A stretch of 64,000 nt of DNA from Hyaloraphidium curvatum (Eukaryota; Monoblepharomycota; Hyaloraphidiomycetes; Hyaloraphidiales; Hyaloraphidiaceae), in contig JAIVFI010000005.1 of assembly GCA_025558095.1 (NCBI GenBank), positions 682,001-746,000 of the forward strand. Direction: 5' to 3'. Each line of letters opens with the position of its first letter. The first letter of the stretch is position 1. A model generated the notes under the pieces. The model was not told the origin of the DNA, searched no databases, and was given only the letters and a program-made list of their open reading frames with translations. Positions 53,896 to 64,000 of this stretch are shown piece after piece. The translations under genes were made by a program, and so were the position numbers.

Positions 53896-55513
53896 CTAGC
53901 AAGGACTCACCAGGTGAGGAAACGTCGCCCTGATCTGCCTGAACCACTTGAGAGCGGCGGGAACGACGATCAAACACACGGGCTGCCCAGCATGGCGGCA
54001 ATCGACCCCTCCTCCGATCGCGGGTCCCGCCCTCATCGCCGCAAGCATCGCGCGAGCGACCTCGGCCGGCTGAGGCGAGAAGGTAACGAACTCGACGCCG
54101 AGCACGATCGGGTCCCCCAGGTGGAACAGGAGGAGATCGAGGCGGATGCTGCCAAGGCGGAGGATGTCGCGATCGCCAACCGAGCCGAGCGCAACGGGAG
54201 CGGTGCTTGATGCGCCCAACGGATCGACGATGCGGAGCATCCTTGTGACGCAATGCGAAGTTCCGAAGGCGAGCGTAATGTCTTGCGCTACAGGCTCGAC
54301 CGCGAGCAGGGTCGGCCGGGGCTGAAGCGGGACGAGGCCCGGAAGCTGCATGGCCCAGGTACCCGAGGCCTGCGAAAGCGGGACGGCGCTGGCGGCAGGT
54401 TCCGAGACCAACGTCATAGATGATGCCTGTCGTTCTGCGTCGTGAGTCTTCTCCAAACGTTCTTTCGTAGTCATGCTTTTCATCATCTCGGTGATTGAGC
54501 TCAGAAGCTGCGTCTGCTTGGCAAGCTGGCTTTCCGGTATCCTCGCATCGCGTTTCGAAAGCTGCGTCTGCTTGGCAAGTTGGCTTTCCGGGATCTTTGC
54601 ATCCCGTTGTTTGCGGCCCTGCCGATCGGCACCGCGTTTCGCAGCTTCCGACTTGATCGAGTCCTTGCCACGGTCGGCATCCGTGGTCGACTTTCGCCTC
54701 GACGCGTTGCCGCCCGAAGAGTCCACTTTCGTCCCCTTTGTTTTGGCCGCATCAGGCTGCACCGCCGTGGGTGACTTGGGAGACGGCGGGGGCGCCTCCG
54801 GATCAATGTCCGTGAGGCAAACGACCTTCCCTTCCGCCGCCCAGGCCTATCGATCGAACAATCAGTGTGAGGAAGCCGACGTGGTCCTCATTGACTCACA
54901 GGCTGCCTCCTCGCCGCGTAGGCCATTGCCCTGGCCCCCGCATCGGGATTGGGGAAGAGCAACGAAGCCGACGTGAAAGGCACCGAAGCGTCTTGAGGAA
55001 CTACTCCTGGGCGCCGGACAAGCCTGCGAATAGCGATTCGACAATGAGCACAGATCGCTTGGCAGAGATCGCGACCCACTTGTGCTGGGGCTGTGAGATC
55101 CACGATTCGACCTGCGCCGCGGTGGTCGACGAGGGCAGGTTCGTGGCAAAAAGACGGTTGCTGTCCGGATAGTGGAAACCACCAAGAGTCGGCTCTGTCT
55201 TCGCCTGGTCAAGGAAGCTTGCCGCCGACGCGTGGTCGGGAAACATGAGGACCGCCTGGCCCCCGTCCTCGATGATGCAGAGGTCCTGAAGCTCCCCAAG
55301 GCGCTTGCATGTGTCCCAAAGGTGCGGCAAGGCCGCTCCCGCGGGGACGGAGCCGAGCAGGACTGCCGAGTCGCCCTCGAGGTCGCGGACTTTCGGCACC
55401 GTAACGGCCTTGGACGGCGGTGAAACCGTCCGCTCCGGCGCCTCCGCAGCTGGAGACACGTTGTGCATAGAGGACGATCGCTGGCTCGCAGCCGGCTCAG
55501 TCGCGTTGGACAT
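53896..55513 (-). CDS. Hypothetical protein with RRM-like and coiled-coil parts
   Basis: The first exon starts at ATG 55513 and encodes an RRM-like fold (DSAVLLGSVPAGAALPHL, later GGQAVLMFPDHASAASFLD) and the beginning of a second one (SNRLFATNLPSS). After one or more short introns near 55000 and 54880 the frame continues at 54762 and earlier with KVVCLTDIDPEAPPP, a charged segment, a Gln/Lys-rich helix carrying an 18-residue tandem duplication (IPESQLAKQTQL twice) and a hydrophobic Ala/Val/Leu C-terminal part. No precise family found. The intron at ~55000 would be unusually short, so the join is uncertain; the C-terminal end could be different too. Confidence 0.5.
54507..54614. repeat. 54-base tandem duplication
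   Basis: The word gctgcgtctgcttggcaag recurs with a 54-base period (54507 and 54561), adding 18 residues in frame to the RRM-like gene. The copies have diverged slightly. Confidence 0.85.
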
Positions 55514-56769: not shown

Positions 56770-59700
56770 GTTCCAGATGGGCAAAGAGTCCCGGCGTTGG
56801 CACAAAATCCGGCCGCCGCGTGGAATGAAAAAGGATGCCGGATCTATTCGCACATCGCCAAGGACGAGCTCGGCCTCGAGTTCAGGAAGAACACAACCTC
56901 GGACAAGGAGATTGCCGACAAGGACAAGTCGCTTTACCTGCACCGCAGCATCCTGCGACTCGCGCCCTTCGCCTCGTGGGCCCCGCGAGCGCCCGTGGAG
57001 AAAGGTTCCGCTCTCGGAATCCCGGAGGAGCTGGACCTCGCTACCTATTTCCGCCCGGCACCACCCGTCGACGAGGGCAACGCCGTCGGGGACGCGGAGC
57101 CGCCGCCGGCTACGGCTTCCACGACCGCGGAGCTCAAGTTCACGGCGGAGCCGTTGACGCCGGCGCTGAGGCAGGAGTACCTCGACGCGACGCGCAATGG
57201 ACACCTCGCGCAGGCCATGCTGGGAGTGCTGTCGGCGATGGAGGCGGCTGCCGGGCTCGGCGGCAACGAGTTCATGACGCGCGTTGAGGCGGTGTACCGG
57301 ACGACAACGATCGGGGGTCTGGAGCCGCGGCACGGGAACCCGGCCGACGCCGGTGGCCGCTGGGTCTACGGGGACCTGTCCGAGATCGTGGACCCGCGGC
57401 TGCCGACGACCGAGATCTGCGCCAACTGCCCCAAGGGCGACGTGGTGCTGGGCTCCCGCCGCTACTTCCTTAACGCGACCAACAGGATCTTCTTCACCGC
57501 CCTCGACACCACCGCTTTGGACCGGCTTCGAGGTCTGCTGGCCGAGACGACGGTGGGCTCGCCTCCGCCATGGACGCGCTCATGTCTGATCCGCGCACGG
57601 CCGTGTCGCAGGACGAGGCGACCAAGACGGCCATCGGCAACGACATCGCCGTCATTGAGTTCGAGCTGCATTTTGCACGCCCGCGACACGCAGCCCGCCG
57701 ACTTTGACGATCAGCACTGGCCCAAGGCGACTCGCGCCCGCGCCCGCGTGATGGGCAACCTGGTCTTCACGGACGCTGGCAAAACCTGCCCCCTCCTATT
57801 CGTGGGCATCGTGCGCACACTGCCTCTGATGCGTTTCCTGACAGCCCTTTTGCGCCCAGATCGACGGCGACGATGATTGTTGCTGTTGCGACAGCATGTC
57901 TAAGATGATGGGAGGCGGCGAGTGGGATGCCGACGTCGCCAAGCGAGCTCTGCTCCTTCACCGCCGCATCCAGCTCGAGCACCTTCGGCTGGAACTCGCA
58001 GCATTCCGCCCGACCTTGGTCATCGGCTTGGGGTCAAACATGGCCCGGATGCTGTGCTCCACGAGCGGGAGCCCTCACCTGCCCAAGCGCTCCCTTCCGT
58101 TTGCGACCGGCGGCATCCTCAACGTGGAATTCAACGTGCGCGGCTCCGATCCCGCAACCGCCTTCCAGCTCGCGGTCGCGCCGCACCCTGTGGCATGCGC
58201 AATGCTGCCCTCCCACCTGGCCGACTCGGTCACCGCCCTCTGCCTCCTCCCGAACCCTGCCAAGGCGGAGGCCGGAGCGGTGTTCGACCCGTCGTCGTAC
58301 TCGGCGGTCGCCGCGCTGGACGCCGCGTCTCGGCTCGCGGCGCGCACTATCGTCCCTGAGGTCTTCACTTTCTGGCCCGAGCGGGGCACCGAGGGCGTCA
58401 CCCACCTGGAGTCGCTCCCCGCGGCTCACCAACGGATCCCTGAGTCGTTCATACCCAGCTGGCTGATATCGAGCTGCGCCAACCTCTTCACGTCGGGCTT
58501 CAAGGAAAAGTTCAAGGACCGGTTCCAGGCCTACCTTGAGATCTTCGCTGCGAATGGCCTCCGCGACCTCGCCTTCGGGAAGTCCCGCACGTACCTGGAT
58601 CGGGCCACCCGCGCGCGGATTGGGCAAGATGCGCCCGCACCGCCGGCAGGCCTCCTGGGCGCGCTGGCCTACCGGCTGCGGTGTCTGCTGGTCCCGCGGT
58701 CCGGTCAGGCGGCGTCTGCTGCGGTCGCCGAGGATGGGGATGAGGTTGCCGTGCTGCTCGAGGACGACGGGCAGGACGCGGTGGCGCTGACGCCGCGAGA
58801 GAGCGTCGCCGCCATCTACGGCCTGAAGCCGCAGGTTGCGGATATCGTCAAGGATCTGGATGGCCTCGGGCGGCATTTTCTGGAACGTTCGTCGGACAGG
58901 ACGCGCGCCAGCACCCAGTCCCTCCTGGATGCCGCGCGCGACCTTCTCTTTGGAGCTCCGGGCGGTGCCGCGCGCCTCCGTCCGATCGCCGACATCCGCC
59001 GCGACGCCGGGCTCGGCGAGGTCGCGTTGACGGACCTGAAGCTCGACGATAAGCTGGGATTTGTCCGGAGCGCTGTCGTGGCTGGGGACCTGAACCAGCG
59101 GCTCACGCCGAGGCTCCATGCGGGCGATCGCTTCTCCAACCTGGACAACGCGGTGTTTGGGAAGTGGCTTGCAGCGTACGTCGGCTTCCTGCTGCGCCAA
59201 GACGAGGGCGGGAAGGACGAGTTCGGTGCTTCCGTGTCGTTTGGCCTGGCGGACTCCCTGGACCACTGCAGGATCCCTGGGGCGGCAGACGGTAGGGTTC
59301 TGGCCAAGGTCAAGAAATGTCTCCGGGACCAGGATCCCGGCGTGAAACTCGAAGGAGGCGACGTGTCCACCCTCCTCCGCAACTATGCCTTGCCAGGCGC
59401 CGTGGCGCTTGGCGCCGGCTCTCCCCGAGATCGACTTCATCGTGAATCGAGCAACTACATCGCGTCGAACGGTGTCGCCACCAGGGTGCTCTTTGAGCAC
59501 CCGCATCATACCAAGGGCTTCAACCGGCTGGGTGGGGCGCGCAGCGCAGTCAAGGTAATGGCATGCTCGCAGCCAAGTTGATGGTCCGCTGACGGTCGAC
59601 CCACCTTCCTCGCAGCCGGGTCACGGTGATCTGCCTCAAGATGCCAAGTGGGTGGCTAGTTGCGTCGGGTGCCAAGGAGGAAGGGGCTGCGATCGCAAGT

Positions 59701-61526
59701 ATCCGAGATGCGGGTGAGCTTTGCCCCAGTCAATTGGTGCTCATTTCCTCCTAATCCTTAACTATCTACTCACCCGTAGCGCCTGCACCAACGCGAATCG
59801 GCAGTGCATCTACAAGATGCCTGTGTGCGAGTGCTGCAACAAGGCGCGTCGCGTCTGCGACGGCAGAATGCCCTCGTGCGGGTAGGTTTCCGTTGTTGAC
59901 ACCTCCTCGCACCTCGTGTTGCTGACTGACACGCTTTCGAACATCAGGCAGTGCACGTATGCAGGGGACACCTGCTCGTGGGAGTTCTTGACAGCCAAAG
60001 GAAGGCGGAAGGCCGGCGACGCCGAGGACTTTGAATGGATCTCCCACGCGCACCACCGCACCATCCCCGAGCTCGCCGGCTGGCACGTTCCCGGCGCCGG
60101 CGCCTCGTCGACGCACGCCTTCATGCGTGGCGTGGTGCTCGAGGGCGAACTCTGCACCAGCTCGGATCCCGGCCCCCGGAACGGCGTCTTTTTCCAGAAG
60201 ATGAAGCAGGGCGAGAAGGACGTCGTCTATTACTTCGACCACAAGCCGAGCGTCGAGACGGCCACCGACGTCGCCTACAACATCGTCGCGGCCTCGGTCG
60301 ACCCGGGTGCCAAGGGCGACACGATTTCGGTCACGGCCTTTGCTGTGGGGAAGGACGGCAAGCTCGAGGAGCTGACGCTCCACCGCTTGTTCCGGCCGCT
60401 GTCGTCGAAAGGGTACAGGGCGAAGGACGAGGCGGCGCGGCCCGACGAGTGGTGGACGGAGCACGAGGACCTGTCGACGCTGATGGCCGAGGTGTCGAAG
60501 TCGCCGTACCCCGTCGACGGCATGCTCGCAGGTGGGCATTGACGAAGCTGCTCTGGCTCGTGGTCGCTCACCCGCTCCTATATTCGCCGATCCGCCTCGC
60601 AGCGTCTGCGTTCCTCAACCACGCCGGCTCGCTCCTCGACCACGCGCAGAGCCGCCACGCCCAGCTCGCCAAGGAGTACCGCTTCCGCGAGAACCAGGCC
60701 CGCCAGGCGGCCATGAAGAACTGGATTCTCGCGGCCGGGGAAGCGGTGTGGCGCCAAAAGGTCTACCTGGAGGCCTTCAACGCCCACGTGGAGAAGGAGC
60801 GGCCGAAGCTCGGCGAGCCGCCGCCTGACCGCGACCACGCGCGCAAGATCGAGGAGGGTGCGCACGCAGCGGGCAGGGACGCGGTGGCGGCGATCGAACG
60901 GATCCCCAACCCCATCGTCCTGTGCGGTGCCGGCCAGGGCACGGGCTCCCGCATGCCGTACGTCGGCAGCATCGCCGATTCTCGCGGCCGGGGAAGCGGT
61001 GTGGCGCCAAAAGGTCTACCTGGAGGCCTTCAACGCCCACGTGGAGAAGGAGCGGCCGAAGCTCGGCGAGCCGCCGCCTGACCGCGACCACGCGCGCAAG
61101 ATCGAGGAGGGTGCGCACGCAGCGGGCAGGGACGCGGTGGCGGCGATCGAACGGATCCCCAACCCCATCGTCCTGTGCGGTGCCGGCCAGGGCACGGGCT
61201 CCCGCATGCCGTACGTCGGCAGCATCGCCGAGTTCCTCTCCCGCCACTTTCTCGTCTTCTTGCTGGGCGAGTACTTTACCTCCCAGCTGTGCCCGACCTG
61301 CCTCGCCAAGCTCGAGCCCAACCCGCTCAAGCGCGGCGACGTCGTGCACAAGCGCTGTGCGACCTGCAAGCGCAACCCCGACCGCGACGGCTTCGACGGC
61401 GAGCTGGTTCTCAACAAGAACCGCTCCGCCACCCTCTGCCTCGTCAGGATCTTCCTTCACATCGTCGCCACTGGCGACCGGCCCGCAGTCTTCACCCATC
61501 GGGCCGCCTCTCGCAACGCCGGATAA
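56770..61526 (+). CDS. Fanzor-like (TnpB-related) nuclease with embedded zinc clusters
   Basis: A multi-exon gene; its 5' end is unsettled, and from ATG 57896 alone it spans 1,037 residues. Introns placed by frame: 57802-57859, 59555-59615, 59714-59779, 59882-59947, 60532-60602 and perhaps 60761-61013. The C-terminal part has the Fanzor/TnpB signature: first RuvC Asp in NIVAASVDPGAKGDT (~60295), ~218 residues later GEYFTSQLCPTC (second RuvC Glu plus [TS][TS]-xx-Cys), then HKRCATC closing a C4 zinc ribbon, and LVLNKNRSATLCLVRI as the third motif. A Fanzor-like NYIASNGVATRVLFEH segment lies further upstream. Fanzors are RNA-guided DNA nucleases carried by transposons in eukaryotes. Oddities: two Zn2Cys6 clusters, a 253-base duplication, Asn at the third motif, two compensating frameshifts (~57561 and 57671-57674). 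No guide RNA or terminal repeats seen. Confidence 0.72.
59661..59975 (+). other. Two tandem Zn(II)2Cys6 clusters within the Fanzor-like protein
   Basis: After splicing 59714-59779 and 59882-59947 the product reads two Gal4-type clusters: Cys-x2-Cys-x5-Cys-x6-Cys-x2-Cys-x6-Cys, six residues, then Cys-x2-Cys-x6-Cys-x6-Cys-x2-Cys-x6-Cys. Both have the usual basic-Cys-Asp and Pro-x-Cys words (GCDRKYPRCGAC; RVCDGRMPSCGQC). The frame is continuous on both sides with the nuclease reading. Each intron falls at a Cys-Gly of the pattern (TGC GG|). Confidence 0.8.
60724..61229. repeat. Perfect 253-base tandem duplication in the nuclease gene
   Basis: 60724-60976 and 60977-61229 are identical over all 253 bases. 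The length is not a multiple of three, so reading straight through shifts frame and stops at 61081. The unit contains exactly one AGGT (AG at 60759-60760), so splicing from GT 60761 to AG 61013 would remove one copy and restore the frame. Confidence 0.95.
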
Positions 61527-61682
61527 ACCTACCCGGCACTTATCTGAATGAGTGAGTCTCGCGCCCATAGATGGGGTATCAGGGTGTTGCGAGTTTTTGA
61601 TGGGGGCGGTTAACTGACGGAAAGCACGCCCCCCTCCCCCTTCTTCCTCCCCCGAAGCCATGACATCCGAATGAGAAGAGGT

Positions 61683-62855
61683 TTATTGGACCCCAAACCG
61701 GCCCATAAGCCGCTGGAAAAGCCCGCCGCTCTTCTTCTTTGGTTCCGCTTTCTCCGCATTCCCACTGTCCTCCTCAACCTCCTTTTTGGCCTTTGGAGAC
61801 GCCGGTGCCGGCTTCGCGGCGGTCGGGCCTACAGCCCGGGCCTTCACGGCCTCGATCAGCTCCAGTCCCTTCTGCTGCCGTGCCAGCATCTCCTCCAGCA
61901 GAGCTCGCTTGTTATCCCCGGCCTGCACTTCGCCCGTGGCCAGGTACGTCGTCCAATCGTCCCACGAGATGCGCGCTTTCCACGCCAGGTCGTACTTTCC
62001 CCGTTCGATGATGCTACGAAGGTCGTCGTCCGAGATCGACGCATCCAGCCTCGCGTAGGCTTCCAGCTTGGCCTTGATGTCGTCCATCGCCTCCTTCCGC
62101 GCGGCAACCTCGCGCGAGATTTCCCACTCGGCCCAGTCGACCCGGGTCTGGTCCGCCTTCCGCTTGTCCTCCAAGGCGTGCTCCAACCGCGTCACCAGCC
62201 GCTCCAAAAAGCGCTCCCGCGTCGACAGCTTCGCTTCCTCCTTCTTTTTGAGGTACCGCGCGTACCAGTCCGGCTCCTTCTTCTGCTGCGAGGCAAGGAG
62301 CCGCAGCCGCACCAGCTCCAGTTCCCGCCGGACCTTGGGCAGGAACTCCAGGGCAAACAGGCTGTGCGTGTCCGTCGGCGAGTCCACGAGCTCGATCAGG
62401 GCGCGCTCGCCCTGGTCGCGCTGCCGGTAGCCCGCGAGGGTGACGCGGGCAAAGTTCTTCTTGCGGTCGCGGTAGCGGAACCGCAGCTCCCCGAGCAGCT
62501 TGGGGACCACGGTCTCTTGTTGCTGCAGGATGGCCGCGGCGCGATGCGCCCGTGAGCAGGATTCCGGCGCCGATCGCGGCGGGCACCCACGTAGACCTTG
62601 TAGCGGAGCGCCCACCGCGCGTAGTCCGTATCGCGCTTCGCCAGCGCGATGGCCTGCCGCCACATGAGCCGTATTAGGGACATCGAGGCGCGCGGCCGGC
62701 GTTCCCACCTTCTCGGCCACCTTCTGGACCTCGCGCGCCTTTGCGTTTGTCGTGATTATCTGCTCGTGCACGACGAGCTGGCCGAGCAGCGTCCGCAGCA
62801 GGTCGCGGCGGTGCAGCGCCGTGCGGCCGAGCTTCCGCATTCGCTGCATCGGCAT
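61683..62855 (-). CDS. Mitochondrial large-subunit ribosomal protein bL17m
   Basis: Three exons (introns 62654-62708 and 62523-62590) give 349 residues. The N-terminal bL17 domain is clear: RKLGRTALHRRDLLRTLLGQ, EQIITTNAKAREVQKVAEK and, past the second splice, VVPKLLGELRFRYRDRKKNF with QRDQGERALIELVD. In yeast the protein is MRPL8. A C-terminal extension of about 200 residues follows, with a long charged helix (WYARYLKKKEEAKLSTRE) and a Lys/Ala-rich end; such extensions are common in mitochondrial ribosomal proteins. It faces the nuclease gene tail to tail, 156 bases apart. Confidence 0.88.
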   Translation of the reverse strand: MPMQRMRKLGRTALHRRDLLRTLLGQLVVHEQIITTNAKAREVQKVAEKVGTPAARLDVPNTAHVAAGHRAGEARYGLRAVGAPLQGLRGCPPRSAPESCSRAHRAAAILQQQETVVPKLLGELRFRYRDRKKNFARVTLAGYRQRDQGERALIELVDSPTDTHSLFALEFLPKVRRELELVRLRLLASQQKKEPDWYARYLKKKEEAKLSTRERFLERLVTRLEHALEDKRKADQTRVDWAEWEISREVAARKEAMDDIKAKLEAYARLDASISDDDLRSIIERGKYDLAWKARISWDDWTTYLATGEVQAGDNKRALLEEMLARQQKGLELIEAVKARAVGPTAAKPAPASPKAKKEVEEDSGNAEKAEPKKKSGGLFQRLMGRFGVQ

Positions 62856-62957
62856 CGTGGCGGCGATGCGCGGGATGGCGCGCGGGGAGAGGTGTGCGGC
62901 GGTCGCGCGCCGCGCGCGCTGCGAGTGATGCGGGGAAGACGCGACTTCAATGCGCCA
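62856..62957. promoter_or_regulatory. Shared upstream region of bL17m and the GPHR gene
   Basis: 102 bases between divergent start codons; a bidirectional promoter is inferred from spacing alone. Confidence 0.4.
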
Positions 62958-64000
62958 ATGCCCACGGCCGCCCTGCTCTTCAATGGAGCGGTCGTCTTCT
63001 GGTGCGAACTGTTCCGAAGCGGCGATCGATCTCCCCTGAGTTTCCGCGGAGCTCCCTCGCCGTGTTCTACCTCTTCGGCTGGGTCTTCACGGAATCGAAG
63101 CTCTTCGCCAACTACGCGGTCCACAACAATGTCGTCCGCGTCGTCTTTGCCCTGCTCTTTGCGCTGTCGTGCGAGGTGTTTGAGCTCATCATCTTTGAGA
63201 TCCTGGACGTGCTGAACAGGGAGTGGGTCGGTCTCCCGGAGCTTGTGTTCCCGAGCTGACGTGTCGTCCGCAGCTTCCGGCGCTGGCACTGGTACGAATC
63301 GCTTCCTTTGGCGCTTGACTCACCCGTTCGGATCGCTGAATGGCCGTTCCGCCGCTTGTTTTGGGAGCAGGAAGTTCTCCCTCTTCCTCATCCTCACGAT
63401 CACCGTCTGCGTGGTCCCGTTCTACCAGTTCGTCATATTCTTTTCTAATCGCCGCTACGGTGCGTTGTCAGACGTGCTCTTTACTCCCTTGGAGGAGCGA
63501 AGGGAGGACCAACTGACTGGGATGCCGGCCAACAGCATGGACAAGGCGGTACCGATATCACCTCTCGTCCCTCTTCTTCATCCCCTACGCTTTCCTCTTC
63601 TGGAAGGTCGGCGACTGGTTCCCGATCCGCTCGGACGGCGATGCGGGGAGAAGGAGCTCCTGTGAGCACTGCAACGGGCCCATGGCCAGGGGGCACACTG
63701 ACAGCCGTGGCAGACCTCGGGGAGGCGCAGATTGAGGCGACCATGGGCCGTGTGGGGGTGGTCGGGGTCACGATGATGGCTCTGCTTTCGGGCTTTGGCG
63801 CGGTGAACGCGCCGTACACGTCTCTTTTCTTCTTTCTCCGGTGCGTTGGCTTCCGTCGGTCATCAGCCTCGCACTCACTTTCGGGACAGACCAGTGACTG
63901 CCGCGCAGATCACTGCCGCGGAGAAGCGTCTCGCCCTGGCGGACGACCAGCTGGCGCACAAGCGCCGCAAGATGGAGGCGGCGCGGACCAAGGTGCAGGA
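62958..64000 (+). CDS. Golgi pH regulator (GPHR/GTG family), cut by the window end
   Basis: Exons joined over 63002-63051, 63223-63273 and 63292-63370, with further introns after 63460, match the start of GPHR: FYLFGWVFTESKLFANY, a second hydrophobic segment LFALSCEVFELIIFEILDVL, RRWHWKFSLFLILTITVCVV leading to VPFYQFVIFF, then WKVGDWFPI and the well-conserved GVVGVTMMALLSGFGAVNAP followed by a helix with EKRLALADDQL. GPHR proteins are multi-pass Golgi/ER anion channels affecting lumen pH; plant relatives were called GTG. The start at ATG 62958 gives a short, mildly hydrophobic first exon. The C-terminal half lies beyond the window. Confidence 0.88.

Follow-up and report, generated by a model that had tools for sequence, protein, structure and literature searches.

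The locus described here raises the question of whether a fungal gene has joined two zinc clusters of the transcription-factor type to an RNA-guided nuclease. The window, meaning the whole stretch of DNA analyzed, is 64,000 nt of Hyaloraphidium curvatum contig JAIVFI010000005.1 (682,001–746,000 of the forward strand), and the first-pass annotation had read in it a Fanzor/TnpB-like protein with two tandem Zn2Cys6 clusters ahead of its catalytic core. Below, the locus is compared with its relatives in the same genome.

The window copy and its relatives in the genome

The gene lies on the plus strand in a mobile-element copy that occupies 56836–61624 (right end at about 61624–61640) and is 92–97% identical to a copy on contig 14 (C14), which stops at the same limits. 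Homology to the C14 copy starts only at 56836 and the window copy lacks its 5′ part; the ATG near 56770 that had been proposed as the start of the gene is in another reading frame. The remaining 5′ exon piece (56836–57552) keeps its frame with the C14 and C8 copies. It is followed by an exon at 57612–57801, whose frame, compared with C14, is broken by a 2-bp deletion near 57670, and by a long exon at 57860–59554, which is open and conserved (39–40% identity to the C8-B copy). The GT-AG introns between these exons (57553–57611 and 57802–57859) match introns of the C14 and C8 copies. These two introns and the deletion are corrections to the gene model first proposed.

Farther downstream, the four introns originally proposed (59555–59615, 59714–59779, 59882–59947, and 60532–60602) are borne out. 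Each is GT-AG and 61–71 nt long, and together they join the 5′ exon, both zinc clusters, and the RuvC-I exon in one frame. The exons so delimited carry cysteines 1–4 of cluster 1 (59616–59713), the remainder of cluster 1 together with the first part of cluster 2 (59780–59881), and the end of cluster 2 with RuvC-I (59948–60531; VDPG at 60297–60311). The next exon runs from 60603 to a frameshift at 60978 and contains the first copy of an exact 253-bp tandem duplication (60724–61231; copies at 60724–60978 and 60977–61231), which is single in the C14 copy. Because 253 is not a multiple of 3, the duplication shifts the frame between RuvC-I and the zinc ribbon. The ribbon-bearing frame resumes in the second repeat and encodes, at 61266–61430, the alternative RuvC-II Glu, a C4 zinc ribbon (~61287–61367), and the RuvC-III motif NKNRSA (61410–61430). 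The window copy alone thus does not encode the whole fusion, and its 5′ truncation, the deletion near 57670, and the duplication mark it as a decayed copy, a pseudogene, although the duplication could alternatively be an assembly error. The in-frame fusion of clusters, RuvC core, and C4 ribbon does hold in the open frames of the C14 and C8 copies, and in the window it holds as far as RuvC-I, beyond which the duplication cuts off the ribbon.

Compared over 950 codons, the window and C14 copies have a dN/dS of 0.21; in the cluster region it is 1.6, a value that rests on few changes. The non-synonymous excess at 59616–59975 falls mostly in the first cluster and may be due to chance, and purifying selection is strong elsewhere. 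Two further features of the window may be recorded: a 54-bp unit repeated 1.9 times within an open frame at 54505–54608, and the downstream neighbor of the element copy, a minus-strand frame at 61683–63086 that contains a ribosomal protein L17 domain of mitochondrial type (Pfam E 7e-18).

A protein search of the genome (31.9 Mb in 55 contigs; the window is part of contig 5) gives 23 exon matches at about eleven places, and the copies fall into four subfamilies. Subfamily A comprises the window and C14 copies. Subfamily B comprises those on C8 and C31, which are 94.9% identical across ~13.4 kb, together with a shorter copy on C17 and a fragment on C15; Bp is a second place on C8, and the distant subfamily C is found on C11, C30, C13, and C2. 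Subfamilies A, B, and Bp have ~52–54% identity in the RuvC part. No relatives were found among the viral contigs searched.

Over the whole length followed, the coding frames assembled for C14 and C8-B contain no stop, have six introns at corresponding positions, and specify a protein of >1,900 residues with a provisional start. The cluster and RuvC exons lie at around 250.4–252.1 kb in the C14 copy and around 330.6–332.4 kb in the C8 copy. Two long frames (C14 and Bp) are free of stops from an upstream conserved block into the nuclease gene, so that block and the Fanzor gene may form one still larger protein, or they could be two genes. The upstream block is present only at C8 (two places), C31, and C14, and is absent beside the window copy. 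Motifs upstream resemble those of an XPG/FEN-like nuclease and a ubiquitin-like domain, but both assignments were rejected, as searches of the PDB and Pfam were negative. In mid-protein the motifs NCPKxDVxLGSRxHFxNPTN and APHP..PSHLAD recall a DNA glycosylase (MUG/TDG), an assignment that received no support from the PDB, Pfam, or an hhalign comparison with 81 MUG/TDG sequences (probability 0.3%). Outside both conserved coding blocks, the left portions of the B and A elements share blocks (L034 1033–1442 and L037 2964–4145) that are 75–84% identical, although the coding parts are only ~66–70% identical.

The tandem zinc clusters

The Zn2Cys6 pattern is C-x2-C-x6-C-x5-12-C-x2-C-x6-8-C. Two such clusters lie in tandem at window positions 59661–59975, where they had been predicted, and all 12 cysteines, as well as the intron positions, are kept in subfamilies A, B, and Bp. 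Six residues separate the two clusters, and the exon between the two inner introns is 102 nt in all three. Cluster 2 has canonical spacing throughout, and the first gap of cluster 1 is x5, x4, and x7 in A, B, and Bp, respectively. With the Pfam Zn_clus cut-off at 21 bits the window copy scores 18.4, under the cut-off, and one copy of each of the three subfamilies exceeds it: C14 with 22.7 bits (E 1.1e-4), C8-B with 27.5 (E 3.4e-6), and C8-Bp with 27.2 (E 4.2e-6). In subfamily C no clusters were found by tblastn and none are visible in its reading frames.

Each cluster is interrupted by an intron between cysteines 4 and 5, at the identical place and in the identical phase, an arrangement suggesting that a single intron-bearing cluster was duplicated to give the pair. 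With more than 100 Zn_clus matches above the cut-off in the host genome, several of them as close pairs, a donor in the host itself can readily be envisaged; no specific donor was identified among these matches. The clusters thus share the cysteine pattern, the Zn_clus match, and, in this host, the tandem arrangement with fungal Zn2Cys6 transcription factors, and they differ from those factors in being fused to a mobile-element nuclease, in having an intron in each cluster, and in the slightly unusual spacing of the first.

Do these clusters read DNA? The loop of DNA-reading Zn2Cys6 clusters is usually basic, and one cluster per protein retains such a loop; together with the full cysteine pattern of both clusters, this counts against a purely structural role. 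Acidic loops are seen instead in B (cluster 2) and Bp (cluster 1). Gal4-like CGG-N11-CCG sites were considered as a target and rejected: there are 25 against 11 expected at the C14 locus but 14 against 12 at the C8 locus, and so no consistent enrichment. Both observations, like the multi-copy state of the clusterless subfamily C, would suit clusters that were structural parts, kept the fold together or made contact with the guide RNA or a partner protein, read no DNA sequence, and left the protein an otherwise ordinary, if giant, Fanzor1. We regard such a structural role as a plausible but somewhat doubtful explanation. Our best guess is that the clusters bind the element's own DNA.

The nuclease part and its kinship with Fanzor1

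A five-copy alignment shows no variation at the RuvC-I Asp, the Glu, the ribbon's four cysteines, or the third catalytic position, which is Asn rather than the Asp usual in Fanzors; the C4 ribbon as a whole is invariant or nearly so across copies. Exactly six residues separate the invariant Glu from the first CxxC (GEYFTSQLCPTC and relatives). At RuvC-I, subfamilies A, B, and Bp carry VDPG or MDPG, and subfamily C carries DVG or DFG; the assignment of this stretch to RuvC-I, made by motif and position only, should be taken as putative. DPG and the alternative Glu are a Fanzor fingerprint (PMC10711439), and of the Fanzor motif [TS][TS]xx-C4-RD (PMC3627910) the family matches [TS][TS]xx and the C4 zinc finger (TSQLCPTC...CATC). 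The RD is absent: RuvC-III has KN in every member. Since GtFz1, an accepted Fanzor1, likewise has Asn here, we have not treated the missing RD as an exclusion.

Searches with single sequences give weak results: no member reaches the Pfam TNB cut-off, and a direct PDB search with the giant family retrieves none of the solved Fanzors. Profile comparison nevertheless finds Fanzor1, so the HMM check that had been proposed for Fanzor/TnpB similarity does not refute the assignment. By hhalign, the giant family matches a set of the host's own Fanzor1 proteins with E 1.2e-7 (probability 94%, 71 columns) in a stretch that spans RuvC-II, RuvC-III, and the ribbon; the controls gave E 0.13 (reversed profile) and 0.29 and 0.54 (two unrelated profiles). 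The host Fanzor1 profile in turn matches SpuFz1 (1.7e-7) and GtFz1 (2.1e-6) in the PDB. The proposed fusion of a Fanzor/TnpB-type nuclease to tandem fungal zinc clusters is upheld by paralogues with open frames and by profile comparison. Both this architecture and the kinship of the giant family with Fanzor1, which is linked through the genome's own ordinary Fanzor1 proteins, are well supported. A structure prediction from the window's last exon alone was unusable (mean pLDDT 50.7).

The giant proteins are like the known Fanzor1 nucleases of Guillardia theta (GtFz1) and Spizellomyces (SpuFz1) in the DPG, the alternative Glu, and the C4 ribbon, and like GtFz1 in the Asn at the third catalytic position (PMC11423790, PMC10432273). 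They differ in being far larger, in having tandem Zn2Cys6 clusters before RuvC, and in the wider spacing of their RuvC motifs. The ordinary Fanzor1 proteins of the same genome (L040, L042, L043, L045) are homologous in the C-terminal part by hhalign, including a G-x-RP-xx-F end, but unlike the giant family they have ~390 aligned residues, RD at the third motif, and no zinc clusters that we could see. Among these ordinary genes, about ten near-identical copies of one (NEYLTSQMCSWC; L044–L051 plus places on C28 and C35) are scattered over the genome, a recently active Fanzor element. L043 has a different, long open Fanzor1 frame at ~1–1716 (GDPGR, DEHNTSQTCPSC).

GtFz1, with its Asn at the third catalytic position, cuts DNA, and the SpuFz1 D606N mutant is more active than wild type (PMC11423790). 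Asn at this position is therefore no proof of a dead enzyme, and the intact copies need not be dead; by analogy, nuclease activity of the intact protein is likely. This bears on the possibility that the protein is a nuclease-dead Fanzor that serves as a regulator, much as TldR proteins do in bacteria, and reads DNA through the clusters. The Asn in place of the third catalytic Asp in all members and the transcription-factor type of the clusters would suit such a regulator, but we think it unlikely in view of the activity associated with that same Asn in GtFz1 and SpuFz1, the invariant Asp and Glu, and the presence of the gene in a multi-copy repeat rather than at a single host locus. The multi-copy repeat, the retention of catalytic positions in the family, and the pseudogene state of the window copy likewise leave the earlier idea of a host-captured Fanzor turned regulator unsupported. 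That the zinc-cluster exons are a separate gene adjoining the Fanzor gene, as the broken frame of the window copy might be taken to indicate, is very improbable given the matching intron positions, the constant 102-nt exon, and an assembled frame that is open through the clusters into RuvC in three subfamilies.

The element and the possible role of its protein

The giant Fanzor gene ends repeats of ~13 kb, which are multi-copy with sharp limits; the copies have their 3′ end in common and vary in 5′ extent. DNA transposon superfamilies that carry Fanzor1 include MuDr, Mariner, Helitron, and Sola. The ORFs scanned here contain no known transposase or reverse transcriptase, and no shared direct repeat of at least 7 bp was found at the junctions of the six copies tested. 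The Mucor MCi-2 Fanzor elements are arranged similarly, with a Fanzor-coding 3′ region common to the copies and a differing 5′ end, and have target-site duplications of 11–12 bp and a partial Crypton recombinase (PMC3627910); neither such duplications nor a Crypton recombinase was found in the giant element at those six-copy junctions and in the ORFs scanned.

In other Fanzors the guide RNA comes from about the 3′ end of the gene. In the giant family the stop codon and the next ~30 nt form a block that is similar in all four subfamilies (61519–61556 in the window, by 3′-end alignment), a possible guide-RNA or terminal signal. Folding energies are unremarkable in A and B (z 0.84 to −0.33), and only C (−2.1) and Bp (−3.4) have low values; given the ordinary folding in A and B, a guide RNA at this block is a suggestion, and what we say of the guide RNA and of the clusters' target should be read as guesses.

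The comparisons above show the architecture, its conservation in three subfamilies, the kinship with Fanzor1, and the decay of the window copy. In the better-preserved copies of this large fungal mobile element, a single giant protein (or a pair encoded side by side) has a Fanzor1 nuclease at its end, with RuvC, the C4 ribbon, and a D-E-N active site, and two fungal-type Zn2Cys6 clusters are inserted ahead of the RuvC core. We consider the following reading as a whole fairly probable. The intact protein would cut DNA guided by RNA from the 3′ end of its gene, as other Fanzors do, and would probably serve its element as an RNA-guided nuclease of the Fanzor1 kind. Through the clusters the protein itself would also bind DNA, most likely within the element, and that binding could help to recruit the nuclease or to control the element. 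The more specific proposal, that this is an RNA-guided nuclease with a second, protein-based DNA reader whose clusters bind the ends or the promoter of their own element and either bring in the nuclease or act as regulators of that element, in a giant protein that may also have a flap-nuclease-like part, is quite possible, and we put it forward tentatively.

The first-pass annotation knew of no described Fanzor with zinc clusters, and among the open-access papers searched we found none on Fanzor with Zn2Cys6, nor on TnpB with fungal zinc clusters. If the clusters do bind DNA, the family would be a natural case of RNA and protein guidance within one nuclease, and it would offer a way to ask whether Fanzors assist their elements in locating or avoiding particular sites, with the clusterless sister subfamily in the same genome as a built-in comparison.
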